Source: Myxococcaceae bacterium (GTDB lineage: Bacteria > Myxococcota > Myxococcia > Myxococcales > Myxococcaceae). Taken from it: 51,604 nucleotides of DNA. Location: positions 1 to 51,604 of the forward strand of contig JADGRA010000049.1 of NCBI GenBank assembly GCA_017881265.1. Reading direction: 5' to 3'. Positions 21,735 through 29,844 of this stretch are shown one piece after another. Within the stretch, counting starts at the first letter, position 1; the number at the start of each line of letters is the position of its first letter. The position numbers were made by a program, and so were the translations under genes. Below the pieces are notes generated by a model, which was given only the letters and a program-made list of their open reading frames with translations, was not told where the DNA came from and ran no database searches.

Positions 21735-22706
21735 ATGGCCTTCCCCATCCACCGGCCCCGCCGGCTGCGCCGCACCGAGACGCTGCGGCGCATGGTGCGC
21801 GAAACCACCCTGCAGCCCTCCGACTTCATCTACCCGCTCTTCGTGAAGGAGGGCCGGGGCGAGCGCGTGCCCATCGCCTCCATGCCGGGCGTCTTCAACT
21901 TCAGCGTGGACACCGCGGTGGAGGAGGCGAAGACGGCGCGCGACCTGGGCATCCCGGCGCTCATCCTCTTTGGCATCCCCGCCCGGAAGGACGCGCAAGG
22001 CAGCGAGGCCTACGCCCAGGACGGCATTGTCCAGCGGGCGCTGCGGGCCCTGAAGGATGTCGTTCCGGACATGCAACTCATCGCGGACGTGTGCCTGTGC
22101 GAGTACACGGACCACGGCCATTGCGGCGTGGTGGCCCATGGCGAGGTCCAGAACGACGCCACGCTGCCGCTGCTCGCGCGCATGGCGGTGAGTTGCGCAC
22201 AGGCGGGAGCCGACATCATTGCCCCCTCGGACATGATGGATGGCCGGGTGGGCGCCATCCGCAGCGCCCTGCGGGACGCCCAGCTGGACACCCCCATACT
22301 GGCCTACGCCGCCAAGTACGCCTCTGGCTTCTACGGGCCGTTTCGCGAGGCGGCGCAGAGCACGCCCCAGTTCGGCGACCGGCGGGGCTACCAGATGGAC
22401 CCGGGCAACGTCCGCGAGGCGCTGAAGGAAGTGGCGCTCGACCTCGAGGAGGGCGCCGACATGGTGATGGTGAAGCCGGCCCTGGCCTACCTGGACGTCA
22501 TCGCCAAGGTGAAGGAACGGGTGAACGTCCCGGTGGCCGCCTACAACGTGTCCGGGGAGTACGCCATGGTGAAGGCGGCGGCCCGGAATGGCTGGGTGGA
22601 TGGAGACCGGCTGATTCTGGAAATCCTTACGTCCATCAAGCGGGCCGGGGCCGACCTCATCCTCAGCTACCACGCGCTGGAGGCGGCGAGGCTGTTGGAC
22701 ACCTGA
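21735..22706 (+). CDS. hemB: Delta-aminolevulinic acid dehydratase (porphobilinogen synthase)
   Basis: 323 codons from ATG 21735. The zinc-site sequence [14 protein letters not shown] carries the cysteines of the zinc-dependent class, and the two Schiff-base lysines lie in [15 protein letters not shown] and [34 protein letters not shown] and [12 protein letters not shown] are further family signatures. It joins two ALA molecules into porphobilinogen for haem and cobamide synthesis. Length is normal. No other heme genes lie beside it. Confidence 0.97.
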
Positions 22707-22801: not shown

Positions 22802-23185
22802 ATGAAGAAGCGGCCGCGCCGCAAGCCGTCCAAACCCCCATCCCCCAGGCGCCGCGCTGCTCCCCGAGAGCCGTCGGTGCTGCACTACAAGGTGGTGGAG
22901 CTCTCGACGGTGGACGAGGCGACGCTGGAGGAAACCGTCAACGGCTGGGTACGGCAGGGGTGGACGGTGGAGTCGGTGCACTTCGCGATGCGCGAGTCGA
23001 GCAAGCGGCCGGCGATGGCCTTCGTCTTCTTTACCGGCGCCCACCGTGCGGCGCCGGTGGACAGCGAGGCGGCCCACGCCCGACTGCACCGCCTGGCGCA
23101 TGGCCACTCCTCGCCCGCCCCTGGGGTGGAGGCGGCGTGGGAGCGGCTGGCGCAACTGGCCGGGTCCGGTGAGTCCGAGTCGTGA
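22802..23185 (+). CDS. DUF4177-like small protein
   Basis: 127 codons from ATG 22802. The first 30 residues are Lys/Arg/Pro-rich and probably disordered. Residues 34-85 (HYKVVELSTVDEATLEETVN, GWVRQGWTVESVHFAM, AMAFVFF) match the short DUF4177 pattern (Y-K-V-V ... L-N-x-x-G-x-x-G-W-x-V). Function unknown. Its stop overlaps the GTG of the RDD gene (GTGA), so the two are coupled. Confidence 0.75.
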   Translation: MKKRPRRKPSKPPSPRRRAAPREPSVLHYKVVELSTVDEATLEETVNGWVRQGWTVESVHFAMRESSKRPAMAFVFFTGAHRAAPVDSEAAHARLHRLAHGHSSPAPGVEAAWERLAQLAGSGESES

Positions 23186-23796
23186 GCACCTGGGGCCCAG
23201 GGCCGGAAGGGCCGCGGCTGCAGCTGGTGCCCAGCCAGGGCTCGCCCGAGTCCCCCTACCCACGGTGCTCGCGCACCTTGCGCGTCCTGGCCCGGGCGGC
23301 GGACGTCGGAGTGGCCTACGGGCTGACGCTGGCGGCCGGCAGAGCGGGGCTGGTGGTGGGGCTATTGTACCTGCTGCTCGCCGACGGCGTGTTTCGCGGG
23401 CAGAGCGCCGGCAAGCGCATCTTCGGCATTCGGGCGGTGTTTCTCCCGCGGCGCGCCGGTGCACGCTTCCGCGACAGCACGCTGCGCAATGCGCCGCTGG
23501 CCCTGGTGGTGCTCCTGCGGATGATGCCGGAGCCCCTCGGGCTCCGGGCGTTCCTCGGCGGCCTGGTGGTGATTGGCGGGGTGGAGGCGTGGAAGTCGCT
23601 GCGCGACCCGCTCGGGCGGCGCTTCGGCGACGTGTGGGCGCAGACGCAGGTGGTGGATGGCAAGGTGGCCTCGGGGACGGCCGACGAGGAGGCGCCGGCC
23701 AGCGTGGCGGTGGGGCCGGGGCGTTGGATGAGCCGGACGCGTGACGGGCGCGCCGCTCGCTTCCGGAGGAGGCATCCCGCGTGCGCATCGCGCTGA
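23182..23796 (+). CDS. RDD family membrane protein
   Basis: 204 codons from GTG 23182, overlapping the preceding stop as GTGA. VLARAADVGVAYGLTL is the arginine/aspartate-bearing first helix of RDD proteins; GQSAGKRIFGIRAVF is the characteristic linker and DPLGRRFGDVWAQTQVV closes the domain. Two to three membrane helices. Its tail is Arg-rich and runs 16 bases into the ATP-grasp gene, whose ribosome site is inside it. RDD proteins are proposed transport or ion-exchange proteins; no substrate can be inferred. Confidence 0.85.
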   Translation: MSTWGPGPEGPRLQLVPSQGSPESPYPRCSRTLRVLARAADVGVAYGLTLAAGRAGLVVGLLYLLLADGVFRGQSAGKRIFGIRAVFLPRRAGARFRDSTLRNAPLALVVLLRMMPEPLGLRAFLGGLVVIGGVEAWKSLRDPLGRRFGDVWAQTQVVDGKVASGTADEEAPASVAVGPGRWMSRTRDGRAARFRRRHPACASR

Positions 23797-25922
23797 CGTA
23801 CAACCTGCGGCTCTCGGACTCGGAGGAGGAAGCCGAGTTCGACAGCGTGGAGACGGTGAATACCCTGGCCGGCGCCATCGAGCGGCTCGGCCACCGCCTG
23901 GAACGGGTGGAGGTATCGGGCCCCGCCTCGCGGATTGTGGCGCGCCTGGAAGCCTACAGCCCGGACCTCATCTTCAACACCGCCGAGGGGCGGCGCGGCC
24001 GCTTTCGAGAGGCCTTCTACCCGGCTCTCTTCGATGAGCTGGGCATCCCCTACACCGGGTCCGACGCCTATGCCCTGGCCGTCACGCTGGACAAGCAGCT
24101 CACCAAGCTCATGCTGCGCGAGCACGGCGTGCGCACGCCGGGGTGGCAGTACGTCGAGCATCCCGAGGAGCTGAATCCGCGTGCGCTCCGCTTCCCCGTC
24201 ATCGTCAAGCCCAACTTCGAAGGTTCCTCCAAGGGCATCACCCAGGACTCGGTGGCCGAGACGGTGGAGGAGCTCCAACAGAAGTGCGCTTTTGCCCTGG
24301 AGCGCTACCCGGCCGGTGTCCTGGTCGAGGAGTACATCTCCGGCCGCGACATCACCGTGCCGTACCTGGCTGCCGTGCAGAACGAGTTCGGAGGCGTGCT
24401 GTCGCCGGTGGAGTACGTCATCGACCCGAAGCTGTCCGGCGCCCGCAAGTACGACATCTACGACTACGCGCTGAAGACGACGCACACCCGGGCGGTGACG
24501 GTGCGGGCACCGGCCAAGCTGAGCCCGGCCATGAGCGATGAGTTACGGGAGACGGCCCGGAAGATTTTTCGGGTCTGCGATTGTCACGACCTGGGCCGGC
24601 TGGATTTCCGGGTGAGCGATGCGGGTGTGCCGCACTTTTTGGAAATCAACGCGCTGCCCAGCCTCGAGCCGGGGGCCGGCATCTACGTGGCGGCCGAGCT
24701 CGAGGGGCTGCACCTGGACCGCGTCATCGACTCCATCATCGAGAGCGCCGCCAAGCGCAACGGCATCAAGGACAGCCCGCGGCGGCAGGGAAAGCCGACG
24801 CGGAAGTCGGGGCCCCTGCGGATGGGCTTTGCCTACAACGTGAAGCGCATCAAGCCCACCGCCGACGCCCAGCAGGACAGCGAGGCGGAGTACGACGCGC
24901 CCTCCACGCTGCAGGCCATCCGCGAGGCCATCGCCTCCTATGGCCACGAGGTGATTGACCTCGAGGCCAACCAGGAGCTGCCCACCGTGCTGGCCGTCAC
25001 GCCCATCGACGTCGTCTTCAACATCGCCGAGGGGTTCAAGGGGCGAAACCGCGAGAGCCAGGTTCCGGCGCTGCTGGAGCTGCTCGACATCCCCTACACC
25101 GGGTCCGACCCGGCCACGCTCTCCATCGCCCTGGACAAGGCGCTGGCCAAGCGCATCGTCCGCCAGCACAACATCAACACGCCCAACTTCCAGCTGATGG
25201 TGACGGGCAAGGAGCGGCTCAGCCGGGAATTCACGCGCTTCCCTCTGCTCGCCAAGCCAGTGGCGGAGGGCTCGAGCAAGGGGGTGGTGTCGAGCAGCGT
25301 CTGCCACAGCGAGGTCGAGCTGCGAGAGGTGGTGCGGGAATGCGCCGGCAAGTACCAGCAGCCGGTGCTGGTGGAGGAGTACATCTCGGGGCGGGAATTC
25401 ACCGTCGGGCTTCTTGGTGAACGCCGGCCCAAGGTGCTCCCGCCGATGGAGATTGTGTTTCTCGACGAGACGGAGAAGACGCCCGTCTACAGCTTCCAGC
25501 ACAAGCTCGAGTGGAACGACCGCATCCGCTACGACGTCCCGGCCCGGCTCGAGCCCAACCTCCTGGAGAAGCTGCGCACCGCGGCGCGGGCGGCCTTCAT
25601 GGCGCTGGGCTGCCGGGACGTCGCCCGAATCGACTTCCGCATGGATGAGCGGGGCAAGGTGTACTTCATCGAGTGCAACCCGCTCCCCGGCCTGACGCCC
25701 GGCTGGAGCGACCTGGTCCTCATCGCCCAGGGTGCGGGCATGGACTACCGGACGCTGATTGGAGAGATTCTCTCCGGCGCCATTCGCCGCTACAAGGAGC
25801 GCGAGCAGCGCAGGGCGGCGGACCGCGAGGCGCCGACGGTGAGCAACGGCAACGGCCATGGGAGCGCCCAAGCGGTGCTGGGCCTCGAGCCGAGCGCGGA
25901 GTCGCGCGAAGGGAAAGGGTAG
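23781..25922 (+). CDS. Tandem ATP-grasp protein, two D-Ala-D-Ala ligase-like modules
   Basis: 713 codons from GTG 23781 (GGAGGAGG nine bases upstream). Two related modules occupy residues 1 to about 345 and 346 to about 690. Each has F-N-(T/I)-A-E-G near residue 73 and its copy, IPYTGSD, a KP-x4-GSSKG nucleotide motif (KPNFEGSSKG and KPVAEGSSKG), VEEYISGR(D/E), R-(L/I)-DFR and a metal-binding E-x-N (FLEINALPSL and FIECNPLPGL). Both modules therefore keep ATP and magnesium ligands. Module 2 keeps the G-L-T-P-G of ligases; module 1 differs (LEPGAG). The substrates are unknown. The family forms peptide bonds between carboxylates and amines. The gene overlaps the RDD gene, so a membrane-linked role is possible. 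Confidence 0.87.
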   Translation: MRIALTYNLRLSDSEEEAEFDSVETVNTLAGAIERLGHRLERVEVSGPASRIVARLEAYSPDLIFNTAEGRRGRFREAFYPALFDELGIPYTGSDAYALAVTLDKQLTKLMLREHGVRTPGWQYVEHPEELNPRALRFPVIVKPNFEGSSKGITQDSVAETVEELQQKCAFALERYPAGVLVEEYISGRDITVPYLAAVQNEFGGVLSPVEYVIDPKLSGARKYDIYDYALKTTHTRAVTVRAPAKLSPAMSDELRETARKIFRVCDCHDLGRLDFRVSDAGVPHFLEINALPSLEPGAGIYVAAELEGLHLDRVIDSIIESAAKRNGIKDSPRRQGKPTRKSGPLRMGFAYNVKRIKPTADAQQDSEAEYDAPSTLQAIREAIASYGHEVIDLEANQELPTVLAVTPIDVVFNIAEGFKGRNRESQVPALLELLDIPYTGSDPATLSIALDKALAKRIVRQHNINTPNFQLMVTGKERLSREFTRFPLLAKPVAEGSSKGVVSSSVCHSEVELREVVRECAGKYQQPVLVEEYISGREFTVGLLGERRPKVLPPMEIVFLDETEKTPVYSFQHKLEWNDRIRYDVPARLEPNLLEKLRTAARAAFMALGCRDVARIDFRMDERGKVYFIECNPLPGLTPGWSDLVLIAQGAGMDYRTLIGEILSGAIRRYKEREQRRAADREAPTVSNGNGHGSAQAVLGLEPSAESREGKG

Positions 25923-25931
25923 CGGACGCTC

Positions 25932-26606
25932 ATGCCCGTCGTGTCCCGGCCCCGTCGCAGCCGCGCAGCGCGTCCTGGCGCCGGACGGGGAAAGCGCGGC
26001 CGCTACCACCACGGCGACTTGCGGCGCGCCCTCTTGGATGCGGCGCTGGCCGTCCTCACCGAAGCGGATGCCCGGGCCCTCACCCTGCGCGAGGTGGCCA
26101 GGCGCGCCGGGGTCACCCACGCTGCGCCCTACCGGCACTTCACCGACAAGGAGGCCCTCCTGGCGGCGGTGGCGGAGGAGGGGTTTCGCACCCTCACCGA
26201 GGTGATGCGCGAGGAGATGGGGCGGGCGGGCCCGGACGAGGTGGAGCGTCTGGAAGCCCTCGGCGTAGGCTACGTGCGCTTCGCCCTCGCCCACCCGGCG
26301 CACTTCGAGGTGATGTTCGGGCCGGAGCTGCCCTGGAGGGAGGAGCCGTGCGCGCTGCAGGACGCCGCTGACAACACTTTCGGCCTGCTGTTGGCCTCGG
26401 TGCAGGCGAGCCAGGCGGCGGGGAAGCTGCGGGGGGATCAGCCGCTGCCCTTCGCGCTCTTGTGCTGGTCCACCGTCCATGGCCTGGCCACACTGCTCGT
26501 GCACGGGAACTTCAAGCACGTCGAAGACCAGCTGCCTGCGTCCCCCGAGGCGCTGGCCCGGCAGATGACGCGCGATCTCACCCGCGGCATGCGCACGAGC
26601 GGCTAA
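25932..26606 (+). CDS. TetR-family transcriptional regulator
   Basis: 224 codons from ATG 25932. An Arg-rich leader of 25 residues precedes a TetR helix-turn-helix: YHHGDLRRALLDAALAVL, ALTLREVARRAGVTHAAPYR, HFTDKEALLAAVAEEGF. The C-terminal domain (residues 95-215; VGYVRFALAHPAHFEVMFGP, ALLCWSTVHGLATLLVHG) is the WHG-type ligand domain. It lies nine bases before the aminopeptidase gene and is probably co-transcribed with it. A perfect palindrome 1.5 kb downstream in front of a phasin gene could be an operator for this or another TetR protein. Confidence 0.92.
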   Translation: MPVVSRPRRSRAARPGAGRGKRGRYHHGDLRRALLDAALAVLTEADARALTLREVARRAGVTHAAPYRHFTDKEALLAAVAEEGFRTLTEVMREEMGRAGPDEVERLEALGVGYVRFALAHPAHFEVMFGPELPWREEPCALQDAADNTFGLLLASVQASQAAGKLRGDQPLPFALLCWSTVHGLATLLVHGNFKHVEDQLPASPEALARQMTRDLTRGMRTSG

Positions 26607-26615
26607 GCTTCCCCC

Positions 26616-27887
26616 TTGGCAATGCACGAAGCTCCTTCCGAGCCGCGCGTCCGGGCGCGGGCGCTGGACCTTCCCCTGGGCCGCTTTCGCCCGGGGCGGC
26701 ACAATGCCATCACCGACGTGGAAGGGGTGCTGGTGGGCCACGCCACCATCATCCGGGGGGAGGGGAGGCTGCGCCCCGGACAGGGCCCGGTGCGCACTGG
26801 CGTCACGGCGATCCTGCCGAGCCACGGCAACATCTTCATGGAGCGGCTGCACGGCGGGAGCTTCGTCCTCAACGGCGCCGGCGAGGTGTCCGGCCTGACG
26901 CAGGTGATGGAGTGGGGACTTCTGGAAACCCCCATCCTGCTCACCAACACCATGTCGGTGGGCGCTGTGTCCGACGCCGTGGCTCGCACCATGGTGGAGC
27001 GCTACCCCGGCATTGGAGACGAGCACGACGTCATCATCCCGGTGGTGGGGGAGTGCGACGACAGCTGGCTGAACGACATCGCTGGCGTCCACGTGCACGA
27101 GGACCACGTGCGCGCGGCCATCGCCGGTGCCACCTCGGGACCGGTGGCCGAGGGCAGCGTCGGCGGCGGCACCGGGATGATTACCTGCGACTTCAAGGGG
27201 GGCATTGGGACCAGCTCGCGCAAGCTGCCCGAGTCCCACGGCGGCTACACCTTGGGTGTGCTGGTGATGTCGAACTTCGGGAAGATGCACAACCTCCGGG
27301 TGGGAGGGCTGCCGTTGGGCGAGGTGCTCGAGGAGCGCTTCCACAGCCTGCCGCGGCGGCAGGACAGCTACGGCAGCATCATCGCCGTGGTGGCCACCGA
27401 CGCACCGCTGCTTCCCAACCAGATTTCTCGCCTCTGCAAGCGCGTGGGCCTGGGGATTGGCCGGGTGGGCAGCTACGCCGCGCACGGCTCGGGAGAGATT
27501 GTGGTGGGCTTCTCCACCGCCAACATCATCCCCCGCCGCACCAAGAAGATGGTCACCAAGGTGAAGCTGCTGCTCGACCAGCGGCTGGACCCCCTGTACG
27601 AGGCGGTGATGGAGGCCACCGAGGAGGCCATCCTGAATGCCATGTGCATGGCCGGACCGATGACCGGCATCAACGGCCACACCTGTCCGGCGTTGCCGCT
27701 GGATGAGGTGCGCCGCTTCGTAACGCTTTTCCAGGCGGTGCTCCCGCGCCGGCGCCGTCCGGGTGTGCCCAGCTCCCCCGCCGACGGCGAGCGCACCGGC
27801 ACGGTGACGGTCGCCGAGGCGCTGCCGACCGCCGTTCGCGGCGCCGAGGGCATCCCCTTTCCCACCAAGCCCGTGCCCCCGGACTGA
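26616..27887 (+). CDS. P1-family (DmpA-type) self-processing aminopeptidase
   Basis: 423 codons from TTG 26616; ATG 26622 is equally possible. HNAITDVEGVLVGHATI, TGVTAILPSHGN, VGECDDSWLND (family GE(C/T)-(N/D)-D-x-x-L-N-D) and GGGTGM mark the Ntn-fold DmpA/BapA group. The likely autocleavage point is Gly253-Ser254 in YGSIIAVVATDAPLLP, giving an N-terminal serine nucleophile on the beta chain. YTLGVLVMSNFG lies just before it. These enzymes remove N-terminal L- or D-residues or beta-amino acids from peptides. No signal peptide is seen, so it is cytoplasmic. Downstream of a TetR regulator. Confidence 0.92.
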   Translation: MAMHEAPSEPRVRARALDLPLGRFRPGRHNAITDVEGVLVGHATIIRGEGRLRPGQGPVRTGVTAILPSHGNIFMERLHGGSFVLNGAGEVSGLTQVMEWGLLETPILLTNTMSVGAVSDAVARTMVERYPGIGDEHDVIIPVVGECDDSWLNDIAGVHVHEDHVRAAIAGATSGPVAEGSVGGGTGMITCDFKGGIGTSSRKLPESHGGYTLGVLVMSNFGKMHNLRVGGLPLGEVLEERFHSLPRRQDSYGSIIAVVATDAPLLPNQISRLCKRVGLGIGRVGSYAAHGSGEIVVGFSTANIIPRRTKKMVTKVKLLLDQRLDPLYEAVMEATEEAILNAMCMAGPMTGINGHTCPALPLDEVRRFVTLFQAVLPRRRRPGVPSSPADGERTGTVTVAEALPTAVRGAEGIPFPTKPVPPD

Positions 27888-29163: not shown

Positions 29164-29844
29164 ATGCGCCGGCTCCTCTTCCAACTCCACGCGCTGTCCT
29201 CGCACTGCGCCGTGCTGCCCCTGCTTGCCGGGGTGCTGGTGCTTGGGGCGGCCCGGGTCGAGGGGGTGGTGGCGCGCAGGCCGGCCGCCCTTCCGCACGT
29301 GGAGGTGGCCTCGGAGGCTGCGCCGGACCTGGCGCTCATCGACGCCGTCTTGGCCAAGCGTGCCCCGGAGTTGGGCCTCACCCTGCGCACCCAAGTCGGT
29401 CGTGCCATCGCCGAGGAAGCGCGCAGGGCGGGCTATGACCCGCTTCTGGTGCTCGCCCTCATCGACGTGGAGAGCGAGTTCGACGAGGGCGCCGTCAGCG
29501 CCCGCGGTGCCCGTGGGCTGATGCAGATTCGGCCGAGCACCCTGCAATTCATCGCCGAGCGCGAGGGCCTGCGCCTGTCCCCGGAAGAGGTCGCCGCTGA
29601 CCCCGCGCTTTGTGTCCGCCTGGGCATCCGCTACCTGCGCTCGCTGCAGGACCGCTTCGGCGGTGACTTGGAGCTGGCGCTCATGGCCTACAACGGCGGG
29701 CCAGACCGCATTCGCCAGGCCGTGCGCTCGCGCGACCTCGATGCCTTCCGCTTCTACCCCCGACGCGTCAAGCGACGCTTCGTCCGCTTCCGGACGGGCG
29801 AGGGCCTCCTCGGCGACTGGGCGCTGGCCCAGCGCGAGCACTAG
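29164..29844 (+). CDS. Lytic transglycosylase, SLT (Slt70/MltC-like) domain
   Basis: 226 codons from ATG 29164. A hydrophobic N-terminus (CAVLPLLAGVLVLGAA) acts as signal or anchor. Residues 80-195 are the goose-lysozyme-like SLT domain: ALIDVESEFDEGAVSARGAR with the catalytic Glu, GLMQIRPSTLQFIA, GIRYLRSLQDRFGGDLELAL and MAYNGGPDRI. It cuts the MurNAc-GlcNAc bond of peptidoglycan in the periplasm with 1,6-anhydro ring formation. Close to tgl, it could help open the wall for the pilus machine, but this is inference. Confidence 0.92.
   Translation: MRRLLFQLHALSSHCAVLPLLAGVLVLGAARVEGVVARRPAALPHVEVASEAAPDLALIDAVLAKRAPELGLTLRTQVGRAIAEEARRAGYDPLLVLALIDVESEFDEGAVSARGARGLMQIRPSTLQFIAEREGLRLSPEEVAADPALCVRLGIRYLRSLQDRFGGDLELALMAYNGGPDRIRQAVRSRDLDAFRFYPRRVKRRFVRFRTGEGLLGDWALAQREH

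Follow-up and report, generated by a model that had tools for sequence, protein, structure and literature searches.

Relation to described systems

The closest described relative of the ligase analysed here is MXAN_4097 of Myxococcus xanthus. According to Subedi and Wall (PMC9108774), MXAN_4097 has two tandem DDL domains and is encoded in a conserved five-gene cluster together with hemB and sglS. Insertion mutants in MXAN_4097 and MXAN_4098 are described there as normal in motility, growth and shape, and the organism's own Ddl as located in a cell-wall cluster. The name 'MXAN_4097-like amidoligase' is used in a Nostoc paper, which suggests that the Nostoc protein modifies peptidoglycan peptides (PMC5987646). 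Ddl enzymes such as DdlB (PDB 4c5a, 8evz) form dimers (PMC6899670). Two ATP-grasp modules in one chain also occur in the large subunit of carbamoyl-phosphate synthetase, but this protein is of a different family and its whole-chain Foldseek match to the ligase is poor (TM about 0.3). The S58 aminopeptidases DmpA and BapA (PDB 1b65, 3n2w), to whose family the product of a neighbouring gene belongs, act on beta-peptides, for example carnosine (PMC9570944, PMC9235088).

The window (the whole stretch of DNA that was analysed, 51,604 nt) encodes a protein that is evidently the MXAN_4097 orthologue, as set against the published description and Myxococcus loci and not against the DK1622 sequence. It carries two tandem PF07478 domains and is encoded in the same hemB - sglS - MXAN_4098 - MXAN_4097 block as in the Cystobacterineae, with no difference of substance from MXAN_4097. 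Since the tandem form of MXAN_4097 has been published, the kind of protein is already known; the family is named and uncharacterised. We found no earlier report of a partnership with an S58 enzyme in the searchable literature, and neither this link nor the decay of module 1 described below is mentioned in the accessible parts of the MXAN_4097 literature (Iyer et al. 2009, on amidoligases, lies outside this comparison). A preliminary description of the same DNA had missed both the conserved S58 partner and the published orthologue.

The ligase gene and its two modules

23781..25922, plus strand: two-module Ddl-fold ATP-grasp ligase, MXAN_4097-like (open reading frame, Pfam, structure model); 713 amino acids, GTG start, TAG stop
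23781..24770, plus strand: module 1, residues 1-330, complete ATP-grasp fold; active-site residues K105, K143, E183, D190, K232, R273, D275, E288 and N290, altered in three lineages
24219..24236, plus strand: EGSSKG loop of module 1, residues 147-152
24648..24680, plus strand: acceptor-side loop of module 1, NALPSLEPGAG, residues 290-300, where E. coli DdlB has the Ddl loop NTSPGMTSHSL
24771..24812, plus strand: inter-module linker, residues 331-344, of low model confidence (pLDDT <50 at residues 332-342)
24813..25829, plus strand: module 2, residues 345-683; active-site residues K453, K492, E532, E539, K575, R616, D618, E631 and N633, with S643 and D644
25266..25283, plus strand: EGSSKG loop of module 2, residues 496-501
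25677..25712, plus strand: acceptor-side loop of module 2, NPLPGLTPGWSD, residues 633-644

Pfam recognizes two Dala_Dala_lig_C stretches in the protein. An alignment of the two modules spans 335 columns, with 36% identity, 167 bits and E 1e-53. When module 2 was shuffled 100 times, the highest score against module 1 was 25.8 bits, so that the duplication is not a chance similarity. The preliminary description had recognized the tandem duplication of ATP-grasp modules from shared motifs, and these are all present: FNTAEG at residue 65 and FNIAEG at 413, IPYTGSD at 89 and 437, VEEYISGR at 182 and 531, and the diverged pair LEPGAG at 295 and LTPGWS at 638. Structure prediction, which it had recommended, gave an AlphaFold2 model with a mean pLDDT of 86.9 in which both modules take the Ddl fold (Z about 32-34 against solved Ddl structures from Pseudomonas, E. 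coli and Thermus); the placement of the two modules relative to each other is not predicted, because the pTM is only 0.52.

A conserved S58 aminopeptidase partner

25932..26606, plus strand: TetR-family regulator between the ligase and S58 genes, with 9-nt gaps
26616..27887, plus strand: S58 (DmpA/BapA/P1-type) Ntn aminopeptidase, conserved partner of the ligase, with predicted autocleavage at Gly253-Ser254

The S58 gene is the only one of its family found in this genome. Its product has a PF03576 domain (E 6.9e-116) and belongs to Peptidase S58: the Gly-Ser autocleavage site with the catalytic Ser, the catalytic Asn and the Ser-Glu motifs align to 2drh, 5tzb and 3n2w, and 2drh is closest in sequence. 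No signal peptide was seen in the S58 protein and no hydrophobic segment above threshold in either this protein or the ligase; both look cytosolic. The TetR-family gene accompanies the S58 gene in Corallococcus and relatives.

The double protein is spread throughout the Myxococcota and is not a local oddity. Its identity is 65-81% in most of the Myxococcales genera sampled and 49-58% in Polyangia-type MAGs; several reduced genomes and certain genera lack the protein. Among 146 Myxococcota genomes, 90 have both ligase and S58 enzyme, 53 have neither, one has the ligase only and two have the S58 enzyme only, which makes presence and absence concordant in 143. Joint absence is seen in several separate genera. 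Because the genomes are related, the Fisher probability of 3e-36 for this co-occurrence overstates the case, and the genome counts overstate independence. In all 84 genomes with both genes on one contig the S58 gene lies downstream on the same strand, and in 52 of these within 500 bp of the ligase gene; outside the Myxococcales it is adjacent in seven of eight cases and on another contig in the eighth. In the two genomes with S58 and without the double protein (G010 and G106) no ligase remnant was found beside the S58 gene. The gene-neighbour survey proposed in the preliminary description has yielded the S58 gene as a conserved partner, whereas the RDD gene, which it had put forward, adjoins the ligase gene in one order only.

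Further downstream in the window are two adjoining phasin-like genes (PF05597, 28262-29137) and a lytic transglycosylase gene (29164-29844). Loci of the Kofleriaceae/Nannocystis type have histidine kinase and sigma-54 regulator genes after the ligase gene, a local pattern only. PADLOC gave no match for a defence-system link.

Conservation of the two modules

We surveyed nine positions in module 1 and eleven in module 2 of 90 distinct double proteins. The eleven positions of module 2, including S643 and D644, are identical in 90/90 proteins, and the nine ATP/Mg positions of module 1 are intact in 85/90. The nucleotide and magnesium residues earlier ascribed to both modules are therefore constant in module 2, but altered in three lineages in module 1. 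Inactivity of one module in all homologues, which had been considered as well, is not what is seen at the level of sequence, given the 85 proteins with module 1 residues kept. The altered positions are of the Arg255, Asp257, Glu270 or Asn272 type: Arg, Glu, Asn and Lys are all replaced in module 1 of L079, L082 and L083, Asp is changed to Glu in L075, and Arg to Ser in G040. L079, L082 and L083, in which the Mg and Arg residues of module 1 are lost and module 2 is intact, represent natural half-dead tandem enzymes; in L082 and L083 a GTP cyclohydrolase II gene adjoins the ligase gene.

None of the genomes that encode the five proteins with an altered module 1 has an orthologous S58; in the case of L079 there is just a 48% paralogue. 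Module 1 is intact in 68/68 proteins with S58 in the genome, as compared to four of nine without an orthologous S58, and three of these four have an altered acceptor loop. On the tree there are three independent module 1 changes, all on S58-less branches; about five such branches exist, together 25% of the tree length, and for changes placed at random along the tree the chance of all three falling there is about 0.016. Among genomes with the double protein, the search for S58 gave no match in seven Polyangia-type MAGs, a distant match only in an eighth MAG and none in the complete genome G040. MAG incompleteness can mimic gene absence, and in the incomplete MAGs G056 and G178 the S58 gene is missing and module 1 intact. 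The pattern is suggestive of a tie between module 1 decay and S58 loss, not proof of it, the S58-less genomes being mostly MAGs and the change of Asp to Glu mild. Since the double protein persists in S58-less genomes including the complete G040, module 2 does not need S58 for its function.

Module 1 also evolves faster, with a mean identity among homologues of 66% as compared to 72% for module 2, which is the closer module in 92% of pairs. Together with the invariance of module 2, the clade that lacks the module 1 Lys, Arg, Glu and Asn, the single changes in two further lineages and the known dimers of Ddl enzymes, this would fit a protein in which only module 2 is catalytic and module 1 serves as a pseudo-dimer partner or as an ATP-sensing regulatory half, mimicking the Ddl homodimer within one chain. 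We regard such an arrangement as rather unlikely: a merely structural module would hardly keep all nine ATP/Mg residues in 85 of the 90 proteins, and the EGSSKG loop of module 1, in which Ser149 aligns with E. coli DdlB Ser150, shows no variation across the homologue alignments.

Proposed function

We favour, with a probability of roughly 0.6, a cytosolic two-site amino-acid or peptide ligase whose product would be handled by the S58 enzyme. According to the established ATP-grasp mechanism, each active module would phosphorylate a carboxylate, and the acyl phosphate would be attacked by an amine. Module 2 would phosphorylate the carboxylate of an amino acid and couple it with an amine to form a small amide or dipeptide; module 1 may use ATP for a second addition or for tailoring. 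The compound made by module 1 would be the substrate of the S58 Ntn aminopeptidase, which could trim it, turn it over or transfer it; relatives of this enzyme cut amides and beta-peptides and, given activated donors, can also catalyse synthesis. Module 2 would then be the constant site, and module 1 would supply a step of importance where S58 occurs. A two-site ligase making or tailoring a small peptide had been suggested in the preliminary description; it is plausible with ATP/Mg residues in both modules, but the module 1 site is not conserved everywhere.

Several observations count against the two-site ligase with S58 as its partner. Genome G010 has S58 without the double protein, four of the nine S58-less genomes retain the module 1 residues, and mutation of the gene in M. 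xanthus causes no visible defect (PMC9108774). With ligase and peptidase in the same compartment, a futile cycle would also be a risk. The retention of ligase and S58 across the phylum and their joint loss in several lineages point to an as yet unknown metabolite that most myxobacteria produce; the S58 link would offer a direct route to it and make the function of the family testable.

Comparison with D-Ala-D-Ala ligases

When aligned to E. coli DdlB, both modules retain the equivalents of Lys97, Lys144, Glu180, Lys215, Arg255, Asp257, Glu270 and Asn272; the equivalent of Glu187 is Asp in module 1. The ligase is a member of the PF07478 Ddl-fold ATP-grasp proteins, as the fold and the K97, K144, E180, D257, E270 and N272 equivalents are found in both modules. 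The acceptor pocket is unlike that of Ddl. In the alignments the active-site Tyr216 is gone from both modules, its place being taken by T/N/S/H/Q in module 1 and by L/Q/F in module 2. In the window protein the D-Ala2 carboxylate site of DdlB, Ser281-Leu282, corresponds by alignment to Ala299-Gly300 of module 1 and Ser643-Asp644 of module 2. Across homologues, module 2 always has Asp at the Leu282 position, and module 1 has Gly or some other residue there. Single modules miss the cut-offs of the curated Ddl NCBIfam models: PRK01372 (cut-off 243 bits) scores 147.6 for module 1 and 184.3 for module 2, and TIGR01205 (cut-off 245.65 bits) scores 130 and 167. The whole ligase clears them (327 and 293 bits) only because two domain scores sum. 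Annotation pipelines are for this reason likely to name it D-Ala-D-Ala ligase, and the name is probably wrong. The same genome carries a separate true ddl (L004). On present evidence, with single modules below the cut-offs, Tyr216 lost and a true ddl elsewhere, the ligase would not be a Ddl; the two-module architecture, the altered acceptor loop and the location outside the cell-wall cluster are further differences from DdlB.

A second D-Ala-D-Ala or D-Ala-X ligase, acting on peptidoglycan or spore-coat peptides, is improbable for the same reasons, namely the lost Tyr216, the replaced Leu282, the true ddl and the subthreshold scores, to which the normal growth and shape of the M. xanthus insertion mutant (PMC9108774) are to be added. 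In its favour are the Ddl fold and the suggested action of the Nostoc MXAN_4097-like ligase on peptidoglycan peptides. Enzymes of the DmpA type, a group to which the S58 partner is related, are also D-Ala amidases and esterases, which would agree with such a substrate.

The upstream gene block

21735..22706, plus strand: hemB, porphobilinogen synthase, first gene of a block conserved in the Myxococcales
22802..23185, plus strand: small protein, encoded where M. xanthus has sglS (MXAN_4099)
23182..23796, plus strand: RDD-like membrane protein at the MXAN_4098 position, overlapping the ligase gene by 16 nt

The RDD assignment is borderline, with a Pfam score of 22.3 bits slightly under the gathering threshold of 24.1. 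Pfam gave no match for the small protein of 22802-23185, which occupies the position of sglS, a gene required for social motility of M. xanthus at high temperature. RDD and hemB genes lie upstream of the ligase gene through most of the Myxococcales, and in the window the sglS-position gene separates these two. The RDD gene adjoins the ligase gene in this one order, inside the hemB-sglS-RDD-ligase block; no RDD gene was found beside the Polyangia copies. The overlap, correctly noted in the preliminary description, is 16 nt long and recurs in many loci of Myxococcus, Corallococcus and relatives. That the RDD protein exports or anchors the ligase product, as was proposed alongside, is unsupported and most improbable in spite of the recurrent overlap and of adjacency throughout the order, because hemB and the sglS-position gene are fixed to a comparable degree, so that gene order alone may explain the adjacency, and the Polyangia copies have no RDD neighbour.

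Origin and single-module relatives

In a maximum likelihood tree all module 1 sequences are united in a single group (100/100). Module 2 clusters with 'A-type' ligases, which are encoded by single genes (94/79), and another clade of single-gene ligases, 'B-type', is separate (100/98). The simplest origin of the double protein that these groupings indicate is a duplication or fusion internal to the A-type stock, and not the fusion of an A with a B ligase; deeper relations are unsure because the branches of the B clade are long. The genome of the window encodes, besides the true Ddl, two more single-module B-type Ddl-like ligases, L002 (G000:C33) and L003 (G000:C3).

Single-module relatives were sampled outside the Myxococcota through plasmids only; a second Polyangia sample, of the class of G096, comprised 16 genomes. 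Four Polyangia loci (L097, L099, L101 and L102) have a lysine 2,3-aminomutase-like radical SAM gene followed by A-type and B-type Ddl-like ATP-grasp genes, apparently a separate peptide-making unit. As in the double protein, two Ddl-like ligases adjoin and the A ligase is single-gene kin of module 2; unlike there, the genes are separate, the B ligase falls in a clade other than that of module 1, and the lysine 2,3-aminomutase-like gene takes the place of S58.

L122:2195-6960, L120:2442-7981 and L118:2557-8038: A-type ligase gene groups on rhizobial symbiotic plasmids and a Thioflavicoccus plasmid

In these groups the A-type ligase has lysine 2,3-aminomutase, gamma-glutamyltransferase, PanD or diaminopropionate genes as companions. 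More generally, the plasmid A-type ligases belong to or adjoin groups of genes that include lysine 2,3-aminomutase, PanD, SbnA/SbnB or Dab transaminase; on plasmids of Thioflavicoccus, Mesorhizobium and Bradyrhizobium they lie near lysine 2,3-aminomutase, PanD, diaminopropionate and diaminobutyrate genes. The A-type ligases are 64-79% identical among rhizobial plasmids.

Because of these neighbours, and because relatives of the S58 enzyme cleave beta-peptides, a short peptide with beta- or diamino acids is suggested, and by analogy such amino acids would be the best lead to the substrates of the ligase. Against this counts that the hint comes from relatives at only 34-42% identity and that no lysine 2,3-aminomutase was found in this genome. 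A speculative and rather unlikely extension is a near-universal cycle in the Myxococcota, in which the ligase would build a beta- or diamino-acid peptide serving as carnosine-like solute, buffer or signal, and S58 would act on the module 1 product, so that module 1 would decay after S58 is lost. We rejected lysine 2,3-aminomutase as partner of the two-module ligase, since it occurs phylum-wide, was not seen next to the double protein, and gave no match in the genome of the window (G000). Two typical Myxococcota loci, L047 and L074, stand under the labels Comamonas sp. KCTC 72670 and 'Proteobacteria bacterium', which look wrong.
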